Shown here piece by piece: positions 10,938 to 25,957 of a stretch of DNA of 64,000 bases. The notes under the pieces were generated by a model. That model did not search any database and was not told the DNA's origin. It saw nothing but the letters and a program-made list of their open reading frames with translations. Position 1 is the first letter of the stretch; every line of letters begins with the position of its first letter. The DNA lies in assembly GCA_007122455.1 (NCBI GenBank), contig SKTU01000011.1, positions 1-64,000 on the forward strand, written 5' to 3'. Position numbers and translations under genes: made by a program. The DNA is from Haloarculaceae archaeon (lineage in GTDB: Archaea > Halobacteriota > Halobacteria > Halobacteriales > Haloarculaceae).

Positions 10938-11008
10938 GCGCCGTTGGTCCAGTGGTAGGACAGTGGCTTCCCAAGCCACTAGCCCGGGTTCAATTCCCGG
11001 ACGGCGCA
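10938..11008 (+). tRNA. tRNA-Gly (anticodon CCC)
   Basis: GCGCCGTTGGTCCAGTGGTAGGACAGTGGCTTCCCAAGCCACTAGCCCGGGTTCAATTCCCGGACGGCGCA folds as a cloverleaf; anticodon loop TTCCCAA. Confidence 0.95.
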
Positions 11009-11105: not shown

Positions 11106-11127
11106 GGTTCAATTCCCGGACAGTGCA
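11106..11127 (+). repeat. Partial copy of the tRNA-Gly 3' end (T-arm plus acceptor), att-like
   Basis: ggttcaattcccggacagtgca versus tRNA 10987-11008 ggttcaattcccggacggcgca (20/22 identical). Confidence 0.75.
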
Positions 11128-11327
11128 CTCTGATCCCCTTGCTCTCCTGTGGTTTCGGCCTGTGACGAGGAAACTATGACGCCACACTCGCAGATCATCC
11201 AAATTAGAACGAATCGGACCCTCCGACGCAGTCGGGCGAGTATCGCTGTTGGACCGCCAACCCGATTCGCACGAACGAACGATGTACGAACCGGTCGGGA
11301 GATGCAGCAACCGTCACGAGAGGTGAC

Positions 11328-11465: not shown

Positions 11466-11501
11466 TGCTAAACCCTTTATTTTCCCCTTCGAAGTTCGGG
11501 T

Positions 11502-11849
11502 ATGGCTTTCGAGGAGCTGCAGACGGATGTTCGGGAATTCTGTGAGAAACGGGACTGGAGGCAGTACCATACACCGAAGGAGTTGGCGATCGGGATGGTG
11601 ACAGAATCAAGCGAGCTCTTGGAGCAGTTCCGGTTCAAAGACCACGCTGACCAATCCGAACTGCTGGCGGACCCCGATCGCAGGGAGGCAATCGAGGATG
11701 AATTGGCTGACGTTCTGTTTTTTATGCTTCGCTTCGCCGATTTATACGACATCGAGTTGGACGAGGCGTTAACGAGCAAGCTTGAAAAGAATAGATCCCG
11801 ATACCCGGCAAACGAATATAACGGACGGAATAAAACGTACGACGAGTAA
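11502..11849 (+). CDS. MazG-like nucleotide pyrophosphohydrolase
   Basis: ESSELLEQFRFKD...EDELADVLFFMLRFADLYDIELDEALTSKLEKNRSRYP; all-alpha NTP pyrophosphatase ExxE...ExxD motifs. TATA-like TTTATTTT about 25 nt upstream. Confidence 0.88.
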   Translation: MAFEELQTDVREFCEKRDWRQYHTPKELAIGMVTESSELLEQFRFKDHADQSELLADPDRREAIEDELADVLFFMLRFADLYDIELDEALTSKLEKNRSRYPANEYNGRNKTYDE

Positions 11850-11855
11850 CCGCTG

Positions 11856-13742
11856 ATGCTTGTCTATGAAAGCACGAAATCCGGGTTCTTAGACGACGTT
11901 GTTGAGGGGCATTTAGTCCCGGAGATCAAACAAGGATACGAGTCAGAGGGAATCGGGATGGGCGGGGCGGGTGAGGTTCAAGCCTGGAAGAACTCTCTGC
12001 AGTACATGCATACTGTCCTGAGTGGCAGTTCAGTCCCGGACGACGCCGGCGTGGCAATCGAATTTAAAATCCCACTCACATCTCGCCGCATCGATTTCCT
12101 GGTCTCCGGCTACGACGAAGCAGACAACGCGAACGTCGTGATCATCGAACTCAAACAGTGGAATGGCGACAGTACACAGGCAGTCAACGACAAAGACGGA
12201 ATCGTGAAAACTGCTCTTGGTGGCGGCATCCGAGAAACAACCCATCCGAGTTACCAGGCGGTTTCGTATGCTCAACTGCTGAAAGACTTCAATATTAGTA
12301 TCCGCGAGAAACCGATCAATCTGCATCCACTGGCGTATCTCCACAACTTCGAACCCCTGTACAGAGAGACCCTCGACAACGAAACGTATCGCCCGTACAC
12401 CGAGCAGGCACCGCTCTACATCCGCGGAGATACGAAGAAGTTGCGTGCGTTTCTTGAATCACAGATTAATGTCGGGGATGACCGGGAAAATCTCTACGAG
12501 ATGAACGAAGGGAAGATCCGGCCGGCAAAATCCCTGCAGAACTCGCTGGTGGAGATGCTGGACGCCCGGGACGAGTTCACGCTGATCGACTCCCAGAAAG
12601 TCATCTTCGAGAAAGCCGTTGAACTGGCGAAGCAATCACGCCGTGACGGGAAAAAGCGCGTCTTGCTCGTCGACGGCGGCCCCGGAACTGGGAAAACGGT
12701 GGTGGCGATCAACGTCCTCGCGGAACTGATTCAGAGCGACATGGTCGCCCAGTACGTCTCGAAAAACCGAGCGCCACGAGAGGTCTACAAAGAAAAACTC
12801 CGAGGTGACAAACTCGTCAAAGAGATCGAACACCTCTTCACGGGTGCCGGAAGCTTTGTCGACACAGATACGGATACACTCCCAGCGTTAATCGCTGATG
12901 AGGCCCACCGACTGAACGAAGAATCAACGTTCTTCGGTCGCGGTGAAAACCAGATCATGGAGATAATCAACGCCGCCAAATTCAGCGTGTTCTTCATCGA
13001 CGAAAGCCAGCGCGTCCACATCGACGACATCGGATCCAAACAAGAAATCCACAAACACGCAACTGACCTGGGTGCTGAAATAGAGGAGTTGACGCTTGAA
13101 TCGCAATTCCGCTGCAACGGCTCAAAAGGCTACATTGCGTGGGTTGACGACGTACTACAGATCCGACGGACCGCGAACGCAGACGGGTTCGATCTGGAGT
13201 TCGACCTCCGGGTCTTCGCCTCACCCGAAGCCCTACATACGGCGATCGAAGAACAGAACGAACGGACACGTCTGTCACGGGTTGTAGCCGGGTATTGCTG
13301 GGAATGGGAGAAAGACGGCCGCTCCGACCCAGATGTGACAGACATCACGATCGGTGACTACGAGCGGAGTTGGAATCTCGACACCAGCGACCCCTGGGCG
13401 ATCGCGGAAGGCTCGATCGACGAAGTCGGCTGCATCCACACGTGCCAGGGTCTCGAATTCGACTACGTCGGCGTGATCATCGGCGAGGATCTGAAATACC
13501 GCGACGGAGAGATCGTCGTCGATCACGAAGCACGAGCGAGTACTGATCGATCGTTGTTCGGTATCAAGAAGATGTTCAAAGAGAATCCCGAGCAGGCTGC
13601 CGAGACGGCTGAAGAGCTCATCAAAAACACCTACCGGACGCTCATGACCCGTGGCATGAAAGGCTGCTACCTCTATTGCTGTGATGACGAACTCCAAAAG
13701 TATCTTAAAACACGCATCGAAAACAGTTCCATCACTCACTAA
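11856..13742 (+). CDS. DUF2075-type ATPase/helicase with N-terminal PD-(D/E)XK-like nuclease segment
   Basis: Walker A GGPGTGKTVVA; Walker B LIADEAHRL; C-terminal CIHTCQGLEFDYVGVIIGEDL and TYRTLMTRGMKGCYLY; N-terminal RRIDFLVSGYDEADNANVVIIELKQW (D...ExK-like). Confidence 0.85.
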   Translation: MLVYESTKSGFLDDVVEGHLVPEIKQGYESEGIGMGGAGEVQAWKNSLQYMHTVLSGSSVPDDAGVAIEFKIPLTSRRIDFLVSGYDEADNANVVIIELKQWNGDSTQAVNDKDGIVKTALGGGIRETTHPSYQAVSYAQLLKDFNISIREKPINLHPLAYLHNFEPLYRETLDNETYRPYTEQAPLYIRGDTKKLRAFLESQINVGDDRENLYEMNEGKIRPAKSLQNSLVEMLDARDEFTLIDSQKVIFEKAVELAKQSRRDGKKRVLLVDGGPGTGKTVVAINVLAELIQSDMVAQYVSKNRAPREVYKEKLRGDKLVKEIEHLFTGAGSFVDTDTDTLPALIADEAHRLNEESTFFGRGENQIMEIINAAKFSVFFIDESQRVHIDDIGSKQEIHKHATDLGAEIEELTLESQFRCNGSKGYIAWVDDVLQIRRTANADGFDLEFDLRVFASPEALHTAIEEQNERTRLSRVVAGYCWEWEKDGRSDPDVTDITIGDYERSWNLDTSDPWAIAEGSIDEVGCIHTCQGLEFDYVGVIIGEDLKYRDGEIVVDHEARASTDRSLFGIKKMFKENPEQAAETAEELIKNTYRTLMTRGMKGCYLYCCDDELQKYLKTRIENSSITH

Positions 13743-13756
13743 GAACGTCTTGACCC

Positions 13757-14494
13757 ATGGGAACGCTCGTCCTTGATATTGAAACCGCAAGCCCGTTCGA
13801 AGAACCCTCCGCGAACGCGAACGACACGCAGTACTACGAATGGGTCGCCGTCGGCCTCGCCTACGCCAACGAGTTTCATGACACGCCTGAAACCGACGTG
13901 TTATTCCGTCGCGGTAGTTGGGATAGCGCCTATACGCGCGACCTCTTCGAACAGCTATTCGAATGGTGTGACACGCGAGAAATCGAGCGGCTGCTGACGT
14001 ACAACGGGACGTGGTTCGACGGCAAACACCTGCTCAACTGGGCCCGCGAACTAGACGACACGACCGACATCGAATTCCAGCAGCGAACCGAGGCCCTGTT
14101 CGAGAACCATATCGATGTCGCACTCGCCGCCGCCGACGAGTACGCCGACGAACTCTGGGACGACCAGCAGATCCTCCCAGACTGGAAAGCCTACGACCTC
14201 GCAGACATCGACAACGACAGCATCTGGTACGACGATTACGACTTCCCAGACACGTACCTCTCAGAAATTGACGGTCCAGCTGTACAGGGCAAACACATTG
14301 GACAGGTCATCGGTGAACGATACGTCGACAATGTTGATGCCGGGATCGAAGCAACCAGCGTTCATCGAGAACTTACTCGACTCCTCGAAGACTACTGTAG
14401 AAGCGACGTTGCCGACCTGATCGACCTTTACACCACACTCGGCGGTCCCGAACTCGATGACACGTACTGCCGCCCACCGGCACGGTTCAGCTGA
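13757..14494 (+). CDS. DnaQ/RNase H-like (DEDD) 3'-5' exonuclease, YprB-like
   Basis: LVLDIETASPFEE (DxE), LLTYNGTWFDGKHLLNWA (NGxxFD), LEDYCRSDVADLIDLY. Confidence 0.8.
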   Translation: MGTLVLDIETASPFEEPSANANDTQYYEWVAVGLAYANEFHDTPETDVLFRRGSWDSAYTRDLFEQLFEWCDTREIERLLTYNGTWFDGKHLLNWARELDDTTDIEFQQRTEALFENHIDVALAAADEYADELWDDQQILPDWKAYDLADIDNDSIWYDDYDFPDTYLSEIDGPAVQGKHIGQVIGERYVDNVDAGIEATSVHRELTRLLEDYCRSDVADLIDLYTTLGGPELDDTYCRPPARFS

Positions 14495-21598: not shown

Positions 21599-22064
21599 TT
21601 ACTCATCAAATTCGACACCGGTGATCTCGAATCTGGCTCCATCCTCAGACCCGGCTGTGATTTGCAATGACCACCCATGCGCTTCGATGATTTCCTGAAC
21701 GATTGCCAATCCGAACCCTGTCCCGCTATCGGAGTACGAAGATCCCCATTTGAGCAGCGTCTGGCGTTCGGTTAGCGGAACTCCTGGGCCATCGTCTTCG
21801 ACAAAAAAGCCCGTTCCATCTTCTAATAGACCGACGGTGATCGTTACGTCCTCTCCGCCGTGTTCGATGGCGTTTCGAAATAGGTTCTCGAACACTTGCT
21901 CTAGTCTGATAGCATCCCCCTGAATCGTGACGTCCGTCTCGATATCGAGGGTCGCCTCGGATTGGGCAATGGAGCTCCAGCACGTTTCGGTTAGATGTGG
22001 CAGCGATACCGGTTTCATATCGTCGATCGTCGCTCCGATTCTGGCCAGCTCGAGTACGTTCGTA
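21599..22064 (-). pseudogene. 3' fragment of a histidine kinase (HATPase_c), separated from its 5' part by a TnpB element
   Basis: VLELARIGATIDDMKPVSL...EQVFENLFRNAIEHGG (N box), VEDDGPGVP, GTGFGLAIVQEIIEAHGW. Confidence 0.9.
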
Positions 22065-23598
22065 TTGACATCCTCCCGCGCCTGGAGACGCGGGAATCCC
22101 ACGGCACCGCACCGCTGGATTGGGATATTACGGTTTGCAGTCTACCATCTCGGCTTGCGGTTGGAATCCGCAGGAGAGGTCATACAGGTAGACTCCGGGC
22201 TGTGCCAACCAGCCGGTACTCCTATCCCCACCCAAATCGGGTGCAGATTCGGAGTTACTTTGCTTCAGGTCGAGTCGGATGTTCTCCGCCCCGTTCACGT
22301 CAGCGTTGAACGCCGCATCACATACCTCGCACACGTACAACCCACGTTCAACACGCTGACTATCATCTTCTTTACCACACACGCAACACGTCTTGCTCGT
22401 GTCTTGTTCAGACACCTCCACGACTTCGATACCCTCGACTTTGGCCTTGTATTCGAGGATATTCGTGAAGCGGTCGAACGCCCACCCGTGCAGGTCGAGG
22501 TTGCCGTGCTTGCCCCAGTTCTTCGACACACCGTTCTCGTCCTCACGCACGCCTTCCAGGTCCCCGACGTTGATGCGGCCAACGCCCTTCTCGACACATC
22601 TTTCAACGATGTGTTTTGCTAAGGAGTGAAAGAAGTGAGTGCGGCGTTCCGACCACGTGTGGTGCAGTCGCGTGGCTTCGTCACCACCAGAGTCGTCGCA
22701 TTTGCCGATTTCTTTCGGGAAGTAGTAGCCGTCCTGTTTCAATCGGTTGCCGGGGTACAGGTCGGCGTCTTCGGTGCTGTAGGCAACGGCAGCGAAGTTG
22801 CTGATGCCGAGGTCGATACCGGCTGTCTCGTTGCCGGGAGCGTCGGGAGTCTCGATTTCGTATTTGCAGACGAGGTGGAGATCCCATCGATCCTTCGCCT
22901 TGTCGTAGACGGCCCTGACTTGTTGTAGATTCTCGACCGTGACACCGGGGCGGGTTTCGTACTCTACAAGGATGTACTCCCACGCTTTCGGGTGTTCCTT
23001 GTGATTTGCACCCTTCGAGAGCCGAACCCGATTGTTCTTGGTATCGTGTCGAATACCGTTTTGCTTCCACGTCACCGTACTACGCGGGTGTTCTTCGTGA
23101 ACACGGCGGCCTTGGTTGTCGTAGTAGTTTTCTTTGCGGTAGCCGGGCGGATTATCCCGTTTGTCATCACTGGAGTACCACGAGTTGAAGGCTTCAGCGA
23201 GTTCCTCCAGAACCCGCTGACTGGACTGACTGTGCAGTCCCTTGTACTTTGGATGCGTCTTCAACTCGTCTTTCAACTCCTCGTGGTCGGGAATCTCGCC
23301 GGTTTCCTCCCACACGTCTCGGGAGTAGTAGTTAGCGACGTTCCAGAGTTTGCTGGCCGACCACCCGTGTCGGTCGAGCGATTCCGCGACCTGTGAGTGG
23401 TTACGGATTTCCGCTCGATAGGTGCGGTGGACTTCCAGCATTCTGAACGTCTGTATAATCACTTATACTCGCTTTCTTGTAAAGATTAGGATTGAGAATG
23501 GTGGAATATCCAGCTCTGTCGAAGCCTGTGGAACTGGGTCACGGAGTGACGGCGCGTATCCACGGCCTGAAGGCCGTGGTATTTCGCCTGTTCAGCCT
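22065..23598 (-). mobile_element. IS200/IS605-superfamily TnpB-only (IS1341-type) insertion
   Basis: Right-end hairpin 22075-22094 (cccgcg...cgcggg) next to ttgacatcc; left-end hairpin 23560-23579 (ccacggcct/aggccgtgg); removal rejoins the kinase frame. Confidence 0.9.
22128..23441 (-). CDS. tnpB: RNA-guided endonuclease TnpB (OrfB, IS605 family)
   Basis: RuvC motifs GIDLGISNFAA, INVGDLEGVRED, DAAFNADVNGAENI; zinc ribbon CCVCGKEDDSQRVERGLYVCEVC; all look intact. Confidence 0.93.
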   Translation of the reverse strand: MLEVHRTYRAEIRNHSQVAESLDRHGWSASKLWNVANYYSRDVWEETGEIPDHEELKDELKTHPKYKGLHSQSSQRVLEELAEAFNSWYSSDDKRDNPPGYRKENYYDNQGRRVHEEHPRSTVTWKQNGIRHDTKNNRVRLSKGANHKEHPKAWEYILVEYETRPGVTVENLQQVRAVYDKAKDRWDLHLVCKYEIETPDAPGNETAGIDLGISNFAAVAYSTEDADLYPGNRLKQDGYYFPKEIGKCDDSGGDEATRLHHTWSERRTHFFHSLAKHIVERCVEKGVGRINVGDLEGVREDENGVSKNWGKHGNLDLHGWAFDRFTNILEYKAKVEGIEVVEVSEQDTSKTCCVCGKEDDSQRVERGLYVCEVCDAAFNADVNGAENIRLDLKQSNSESAPDLGGDRSTGWLAQPGVYLYDLSCGFQPQAEMVDCKP

Positions 23599-24542
23599 AT
23601 AATCCGATCCATTCTCGCCAACGCATTCGACACCCGTTCCAGTTCCTCGCTGTCATCCTTGGATCGGGCGATCTCCAAAAAGCCGTCAGCGACGTTCCAC
23701 GGGTTTCGGAGGTCATGAGCGACGACGGAAGCGAATCGATCAAGCTGATCGTTTTTCCGTTTTAGCTCCTGCGCATACTCCTTCCGCTCCGAGATGTCTC
23801 GGGTATACCCGACAATCCTAACCACTTCACCGTCTTCGGTGACCGGTTTGGCATGCGATTCCACCCACTTTTCATCCGTGCCTGCGGTATCGATTCGGTA
23901 ATCGATTTGAACGAGTTTACCATCCGAAACACGTTCCATCGCCATCGAAACCCGCTCACGGTCGTCGGGATCGATCGCCTGGAGGAAGGCTGACGGTTCG
24001 TGTTCGACCGCCTCCACCGGTTGCTCGAAGACCGTTTCGTACGCCGAATTAATGAACAGGAGCTCACTCCAATCGCCAGCGAATATATACAAGACGTCGT
24101 TAGCCTGCTCACTTAGCTCTCTGAGATATTGTTCAACTTGATCAGCTCGTTGAGCTGTCCGACGTTGTTCCACAACGGTGACGATCTTGGTTGCCAGTAG
24201 CTCGTACTGTTCCGCGACGGTCTCCTTGATCAAGTAATCCGTGACATCCGCACTAATGGCGCGGCTTGCGACCTCCTCGCTTCCGGTATCGGTAAACAGT
24301 ATGACTGGAACGCCGGAGATCTCCTCTCGAGCAGCTTCGAGAACTTCCAAACCCGTTCCATCTCCCAGCTGGTAATCACTGACTATACAATCCGTCTGAC
24401 CGTTCAACTGATCGAGTCCTTCTTCAACCGAGGTAGCCGCTTGGACACTGAGTCTATCGTTCTCACGTTCGAGATTCGTCGCAACCAACCTGGCAAAATC
24501 GGGTTCGTCATCGATGTGGATGACCCGGATCGGTTCAGACAT
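23592..24542 (-). pseudogene. 5' part of REC-PAS-HisKA histidine kinase, truncated by the TnpB element
   Basis: REC domain IRVIHIDDEPDFARLV...CIVSDYQLGDGTGLEVL; PAS/PAC; FASVVAHDLRNPWNVADGFLEIA (H box); stops in element DNA after RMDRII. Confidence 0.9.
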
Positions 24543-24663
24543 GGATACAAACGGATCGACGTAGGTGAAAATGGTTTGTCTAGATTCGCCTTCTGTGCAG
24601 TAGAACGATCGAATCCGAGTATCGGGACGAATACGCACGTTGTATCGTCGTACGCGTCACGTC

Positions 24664-25957
24664 CTACAGTTCGTGCGTGAAGTCGACCTCGTCCTCACCG
24701 TCGTAGAACACAGTCGTCGTCCGATCGGTTCTGGCCAGCGGGGCGCCGTCCTTCAGCACCAGTGTCCGGGGGGCAACGGTTCGAATGGCGTCGAACGCCG
24801 AGACCGCGTCGTAGACGACCAGCGATCCTTCGTTGCCCTCTTTTAGCCCGTACTCGTCGGGATCCACGCCAAAGACCGCAGCGTTGTTCCGGGTCATCAT
24901 CTCCCAGAGAACCGGCGCGTCGTCGATTCGATTCATATGTGCGAAGTGTGCCAGATAGTAGACGACTTTTAACAGGTCACCATCGCCGTATGGGTTCGCC
25001 GAATCGCTGATGTCGTCCTGACCGATGGCGACGGTGACGCCGGCGTCGGATAGTTCGTCGATTCGAGTGTGGCCTCGTCGGCGTGGGTAATCGTCGTAGC
25101 GCCCCTGGAGCACGGAGTTCGATAGCGGGTTTGTAACGACACTGACGCCACTCTCGTCGAGCAGGCGGCACAGTTTGTCCGCGTAGGCGTCCGGATACGA
25201 GTGCATCGCGGTCGTGTGGCTCGCCGTTACTCGGTCGCCAATCCCTCGATCTCGGGACGATGCCGCGAGCACCTCCGTGTATCGGGAGTTCGGATCATCC
25301 GTTTCGTCGACGTGGAAATCCACGGGAAGAGCGAACGACTCCGCGACGTCGAGCGCGGTGTTGACGTGTTCGACGCCCCGCTCGCGCGTGTCCTCCCGGT
25401 GAGGCATGCCGCCGGTCGATCCCCATCTCGAACATGGTCTCGAACGTCTCGAGGAGCGTCTCGTTCCGGGCGAACCCCCTCGTTGGGATCGCGACTATTT
25501 GGATTTCGAGGTCACCGGCGAACTCCTCCCGAAGGTCCAACATCACCTCCGCGGCCATGAACGGATCCTCGTCCTCGGAGGTCGTCGACAGATGCGTTCG
25601 GATTCGCGTGATCCCGTAGGCGGCAAACCAGCTGAGAACCTTCCTTGCCTTCTCTTTGACCCCCTCTTTCGTCAGGTCTGCTCGGTTCTTTGCCCCGGTT
25701 CGCCACGCCTGTTCCAGAGTTCCCTTCTGATTCTTGTGGGGCCGCCCCTCGGTCAACGAACCGAAGACGTGCGTGTGCGGTTCGACTAGCGGCGGTGAGA
25801 CGACTCTGCCGTCGGCGTCGAAACGCTGGTCCCGATCGAAGGACTCGACGTCGCCCTCGCCTGCAGGACTGATCCGATCGATAGTGCCGTTCCGAATCTC
25901 AATATCTACCTCTTTTCGACCGGGGATCGAGCAACCAGTTACGATATAATCTGACAT
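24664..25957 (-). pseudogene. Cytosine deaminase-like amidohydrolase, frameshifted
   Basis: N-half (25295-25957) VEPHTHVFGSLTEGRPHKNQKGTLEQAW...MFEMGID; C-half (24664-25407) GMPHREDTRERGVEHVNTALDVAESFALPVDFHVDETDDP...VTASHTTAMHSY; frame break near 25408-25420. Confidence 0.85.

Follow-up and report, generated by a model that had tools for sequence, protein, structure and literature searches.

Introduction

Human SLFN11, a Schlafen protein of group III, blocks stressed replication forks and limits HIV, and house-cleaning is an established role of the MazG and dCTPP1 pyrophosphatases. Among described defence systems, Hachiman (HamAB) and Gabija (GajAB) share a general nuclease-plus-helicase logic, and AbiO and Nhi, which are single-gene phage defences, unite nuclease and helicase in a single polypeptide. 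Nhi (nuclease-helicase immunity) is reported to target and degrade phage-specific replication intermediates (PMC10734457), and MazG has been listed as a predicted, unvalidated defence domain (PMC13092281). In the literature we found no paper describing a pair of MazG and helicase genes, although the pair may be mentioned in earlier work on nucleotide-centric conflict systems (2015).

Here we analyse a locus in a stretch of 64,000 nucleotides (hereafter, the window) from a Haloarculaceae archaeon. An earlier note on this DNA had proposed that three adjacent genes, encoding a MazG-like protein, a nuclease-helicase and an exonuclease, act together in defence or nucleic-acid processing. The first two genes are a true, very widely conserved unit. 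As the best explanation, to which we give about an even chance, we propose that they make up a mobile module of two enzymes, directed most likely against viruses or plasmids, and that the third gene was recently appended to it as an accessory exonuclease.

Results

A Three-Gene Locus beside a tRNA-Gly Integration Site

The features of the locus, all on the + strand, are as follows:

10938-11008, +, tRNA-Gly (CCC), identified by ARAGORN; an integration site apparently used in the genus
11106-11127, +, att-like repeat, a 22-nt copy of the tRNA-Gly 3' end (20/22 identical)
11106-11327, +, putative remnant of the region upstream of a lost integrase gene; 82% identity to the att-integrase junction of congener G016
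11476-11483, +, TATA-like box TTTATTTT of a putative leaderless operon, starting 26 nt before the gene 1 ATG
11502-11849, +, gene 1, MazG/dCTPP1 (RS21-C6)-like NTP pyrophosphohydrolase, 115 aa; PF12643/PF03819
11856-13742, +, gene 2, Schlafen-group-III SF1 helicase with a predicted PD-(D/E)XK-type nuclease domain at its N-terminus, 628 aa; PF09848
13757-14494, +, gene 3, DEDDy 3'-5' exonuclease-like protein (AF2 fold, DEDDy residues), accessory gene, 245 aa

The three open reading frames are intact and lie on one strand with intergenic gaps of 6 and 14 nt, as had been claimed. All three are under purifying selection between two species (dN/dS 0.11, 0.08 and 0.12 for genes 1, 2 and 3, respectively), which rules out chance ORFs. 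The box that the earlier note had placed about 25 nt 5' of the first ATG, TTTATTTT, occurs once in the window, against 0.09 occurrences expected, and TTTA-type boxes lie at a comparable distance 5' of the MazG gene in four relatives (G003, G016, G049 and G242); the position of the box and its counterparts in relatives fit the leaderless haloarchaeal operon suggested in the earlier note. Searches for sigma-70 promoters and intrinsic terminators revealed none above chance. The GC content at 11-15 kb is 53.5-56.5%, compared with ~62-70% (about 65%) in the adjoining kilobases, so that the local AT-richness remarked on earlier is genuine, as are the tRNA-Gly gene and the copy of its 3' end.

Similar 3'-end repeats are found beside the same tRNA in congeners that lack the cassette there, and a putative tyrosine-integrase gene lies immediately behind this tRNA in congener G016. 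A 222-nt segment of the window (11106-11327) shares 82% identity with the start region of that integrase-like gene; the gene itself is absent, the match to the integrase region being found only within 11232-11327, with none beyond. Together, the repeats in congeners, the putative integrase gene of G016 and the 222-nt remnant indicate that this tRNA-Gly has served repeatedly as an integration site within the genus, and that the cassette appears to lie in or beside a decayed element. The repeat was rejected as a simple att site of the cassette, because it occurs in congeners without the cassette and because there is no right-hand copy of the tRNA 3' end within 64 kb. Nor could the empty site be reconstructed, since in congeners the sequence on the tRNA side does not adjoin that on the P-type ATPase side. 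What stands of the proposed link to a tRNA integration site is therefore the site itself, with its repeat and integrase remnant, but its connection with the cassette is indirect.

Elsewhere in the window (21599-24638), a TnpB/OrfB-like transposon gene (22128-23462) appears to split a sensor histidine kinase gene into two parts (21599-22102 and 23592-24638), and at 24664-25957 two overlapping ORFs resemble a single cytosine-deaminase-type gene with a frameshift.

Gene 2 Combines a Schlafen-Type Helicase with a Predicted PD-(D/E)XK Nuclease Domain

Gene 2 matches PF09848 (formerly DUF2075, now SLFN-g3_helicase) with an E value of 2e-111 over profile positions 1-354 of 354. Among 43 homologues the Walker-type residues K280 and E349 are invariant, and D348 is present in at least 90%. 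By its full-length domain match and its Walker motifs, gene 2 belongs with the Schlafen group III helicases, in agreement with the P-loop helicase core previously assigned to it. The best PDB fold match of its AlphaFold (AF2) model (pLDDT 87) is SLFN11, with Dna2 and RecD also being matched.

The N-terminal region, for which a PD-(D/E)XK-like character had also been suggested, contains E69, D80, E98-x-K100 and Q134xxxY138, all of which are invariant in the same 43 homologues. In the model, the elements H38-56, E65-69, E79-86, E92-100, H131-145 and E155-162 follow one another in the expected α-β-β-β-α-β order. The region would thus qualify for the PD-(D/E)XK superfamily by topology and motifs only (the D, the ExK and a RecB-like QxxxY), its match to NERD in Pfam being sub-threshold. 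By contrast with SLFN11, with which gene 2 shares the PF09848 helicase domain, no Schlafen RNase core was matched in Pfam at E values up to 1, a predicted PD-(D/E)XK-type domain taking its place; gene 2 was therefore rejected as a Schlafen protein proper.

In PADLOC, gene 2 matched PDC-S41 (E 1e-18), AbiO (E 6e-13) and Nhi (E 3e-11), all with partial coverage of gene 2, while GajB gave an E value of only 0.004. The AbiO and Nhi matches span residues 238-422 of gene 2, i.e., profile positions 174-330 of 468 (AbiO) and 180-331 of 470 (Nhi). Because they are confined to the helicase part and leave the nuclease part unmatched, we rejected gene 2 as a member of the AbiO/Nhi family. Like AbiO and Nhi, it has the core of the same helicase superfamily, joined to a predicted nuclease domain; unlike them, it is longer (628 aa, against about 470 for the models), has a PD-(D/E)XK-type N-terminus and is linked to a MazG gene.

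Gene 1 Is a MazG-Like Pyrophosphohydrolase

Gene 1 matches PF12643 (40 bits, cut-off 27) and PF03819 (32 bits, cut-off 22). Its closest solved structures are an archaeal MazG pyrophosphatase (PDB 4qgp, E 3e-19) and RS21-C6/dCTPP1 (E 5e-18), both matched over nearly the full length. To these relatives gene 1 is similar in keeping the metal-binding glutamates and aspartate, and from them it differs in being linked to a helicase-nuclease. In an alignment of 76 helicase-adjacent MazG proteins (69/76 being distinct sequences), the metal ligands E35, E38, E67 and D70 were each kept in at least 75. The MazG-type motifs recognised earlier are thus accompanied by a family match and conserved ligands of the ExxE/ExxD type, which place gene 1 in the MazG-like family. 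It had no match in PADLOC.

The MazG-Helicase Pair Is Widespread but Patchy

Homologues of gene 2, full-length or interrupted (two were interrupted), occur in 19 of 400 haloarchaeal genomes, a patchy distribution, and 15 of these 19 genomes have an adjacent MazG gene. Conversely, when coordinates were compared, the 15 best matches to gene 1 in the 400 genomes all adjoined a helicase homologue. We also assembled 100 helicase loci from haloarchaea, Methanobrevibacter, one woesearchaeon and many Firmicutes, the bacterial figures referring to the best 80 loci. A MazG gene lay within 300 nt of the helicase in 75 of them (46 upstream and 26 downstream on the same strand, and three divergent) and farther off in the same locus in five more. 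Since gene order changes while the linkage stays, a functional tie is indicated rather than inherited order. The count in 400 genomes is the cleaner one, because some haloarchaeal genomes appear under two locus identifiers in the 100-locus set.

The pair is also found on mobile carriers. In the Microcystis phage Mwe-JY31, a cyanophage (L216, a 22-kb record), the MazG gene (HMM E 6e-43) lies 14 nt before the helicase gene; both are annotated there as hypothetical proteins. Plasmids of Halalkalicoccus and Marivirga carry the pair as well, and on plasmid 1 of Halalkalicoccus jeotgali (L221/L205) it is followed, 21 nt on, by a gene of the EEP (endonuclease/exonuclease/phosphatase) family, suggesting that the third position may hold different nucleases. 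Several haloarchaeal pairs are located among metabolic genes. A plasmid of Hymenobacter canadensis (L218) has tandem DUF2075 helicase genes beside restriction-modification genes; the neighbours tested there are not MazG.

The remaining 20 of the 100 helicase loci have no MazG gene, which suggests that the helicase may work alone. These loci bear on the possibility that MazG is not an effector but restrains or tunes the helicase-nuclease, either in the manner of an antitoxin or by hydrolysing an activating nucleotide. Such a role would suit a small partner with a near-invariant active site that is tightly linked and usually encoded first, but helicases persisting without MazG, among them Haloquadratum copies (81% identical), imply that a protective partner is not always needed, and we regard a regulatory MazG as rather improbable.

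The pair might alternatively serve DNA repair or genome maintenance, with MazG cleaning damaged or non-canonical dNTPs and a Dna2-like nuclease-helicase processing stalled forks. This would be in keeping with the resemblance of the gene 2 fold to Dna2, RecD and SLFN11 and with the general house-cleaning role of MazG and dCTPP1, and some loci lacking MazG do have another nucleotide-cleaning gene nearby: a PRA-PH-like gene and a Nudix gene in L022, a Nudix gene in L056, and a Nudix gene 368 nt from the helicase on the opposite strand in L208/L210. However, these Nudix cases are few, and the true partner of the one in L056 may be another large gene, which follows it; moreover, a housekeeping role accords poorly with presence in only 19/400 genomes, with carriage by plasmids and by a phage, and with a location in an AT-rich, mobile stretch. 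We therefore consider a repair module unlikely, though less so than a regulatory MazG. In L079, Nudix and MazG genes flank the helicase on either side.

Gene 3 Is an Independent Predicted Exonuclease

Gene 3 matches no Pfam family and has no match in PADLOC. Its AF2 model (pLDDT 87) matched PolB 3'-5' exonuclease domains and the TREX1 homologue Plex9.1 with a Foldseek probability of ~1, and D7, E9, D88, Y213 and D217 are invariant among 21 homologues. With its predicted RNase H-like fold and its DxE, D and YxxxD motifs, gene 3 is therefore a predicted DEDDy 3'-5' exonuclease, which upholds the reading of its DEDD motifs in the earlier note. Although the predicted fold and motif residues are those of TREX1-like and PolB-type exonucleases, it has only ~10-15% identity to them, lacks a Pfam family and occurs in haloarchaeal defence islands.

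Homologues of gene 3 with at least 73% identity are present in 18 of the 400 haloarchaeal genomes, 15 of which lack gene 2. Neighbours of gene 3 relatives include BREX BrxC, OLD/GajA-like, EVE-AAA McrB-like, MkoA-like and HamB-like proteins, as well as MrfA-type DEAD helicases with RNase_H_2, and one relative lies on a plasmid with NurA and AAA ATPases. These contexts, together with the model, point to gene 3 as an independent exonuclease of haloarchaeal defence islands. Two loci (L163:4671-7675 and L164:4794-7795) have a gene 3 relative that overlaps a HamB-like DEAD helicase gene by 4 nt, with BrxC beside it in L163; the two genes possibly form a separate two-gene haloarchaeal defence system. 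In three others (L147, L149 and L154), the gene 3 homologue adjoins a conserved 462-aa protein lacking a Pfam match, and in L147 and L149 the other flank is occupied by an EVE-AAA_5 (McrB-like) gene and the gene for a 463-aa partner, both running in the opposite direction.

The complete trio was found only here and, at a different genomic location, in congener G003. The earlier suggestion that the three gene products act together consequently finds no support as a general rule, since the trio is not conserved outside close relatives, and we rejected the trio as a conserved unit. Gene 3 might indeed be a mere chance neighbour that came to lie behind the pair in an ancestor of the two species. 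In addition to its adjoining the helicase in these two genomes only and the many close homologues in genomes without the helicase, a third congener (G016) retains gene 3 only as an inverted fragment, and the nuclease gene behind the pair in H. jeotgali is a different one. Against this, the 6- and 14-nt spacing is kept in both species, and the DNA is ~80% identical over the whole of 11529-14483, in spite of the different locations; combined with the dN/dS value of gene 3, this argues for a functional gene 3 that has moved together with the pair on one occasion or more. We put chance neighbourhood somewhat below an even chance.

Defence Context of the Locus

Around the bacterial helicase loci, genes within 2.5 kb match 189 PADLOC families, whereas those at distances above 6.5 kb match 81; this crude comparison counts families rather than proteins, and many of the models overlap. 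The families matched nearby include type IV and type I restriction, PbeA and MkoA, and DUF2357/PDDEXK_7, Mrr and DUF3427 helicases recur near these loci. None of genes 1-3 of the window strongly matched a validated defence family in PADLOC, and this search lent no support to their being members of Gabija, Hachiman, BREX or Druantia; for all the shared logic of nuclease plus helicase, the window has neither HamA/HamB nor GajA. The defence character claimed earlier thus gains from the similarity to AbiO, Nhi and PDC-S41, the neighbours, the patchy spread and the mobile carriers, but not from a strong match to any validated family, and we regard the defence context of the pair as suggestive.

Discussion

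The antiviral reading of the MazG-helicase module is based on its AbiO/Nhi-like helicase, the linkage to MazG, the patchy spread, the plasmid and phage carriers and the defence-type neighbours. By analogy, the module is best read as similar to the nuclease-helicase immunity of AbiO/Nhi, supplemented by an enzyme that destroys nucleotides. We infer an antiviral function, a nucleic-acid target, a substrate for MazG and cooperation of gene 3 along the following lines. The helicase-nuclease, like Nhi, would load on viral or replicating foreign DNA, translocate and cut. MazG would split (deoxy)nucleoside triphosphates into NMP and PPi, with dCTP-type nucleotides as its probable and modified ones as its possible substrates; either DNA resynthesis would thereby be blocked or viral nucleotides would become unusable. 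The DEDDy exonuclease would trim the freed 3' ends.

A more far-reaching proposal, which we think less likely than not, is that the locus represents a widespread, undescribed form of two-enzyme immunity, in which a dCTPP1-like MazG would destroy viral or modified dNTPs, a Schlafen-type helicase with a PD-(D/E)XK nuclease would shred replicating foreign DNA, and extra nucleases (DEDDy here, EEP in Halalkalicoccus) would be swappable.

The analysis defines an unnamed haloarchaeal DEDDy exonuclease, predicted from its model and motifs, that recurs in defence islands. The pair itself is a testable two-gene unit, found in haloarchaea, a methanogen, Firmicutes, a Bacteroidota plasmid and a phage, in which nucleotide destruction would be joined to a Schlafen-type helicase. 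Because SLFN11, which acts on stressed forks and on HIV, is the closest solved fold, a prokaryotic relative of it equipped with both nuclease and nucleotide hydrolase could reveal the part that this family of helicases plays in immunity.
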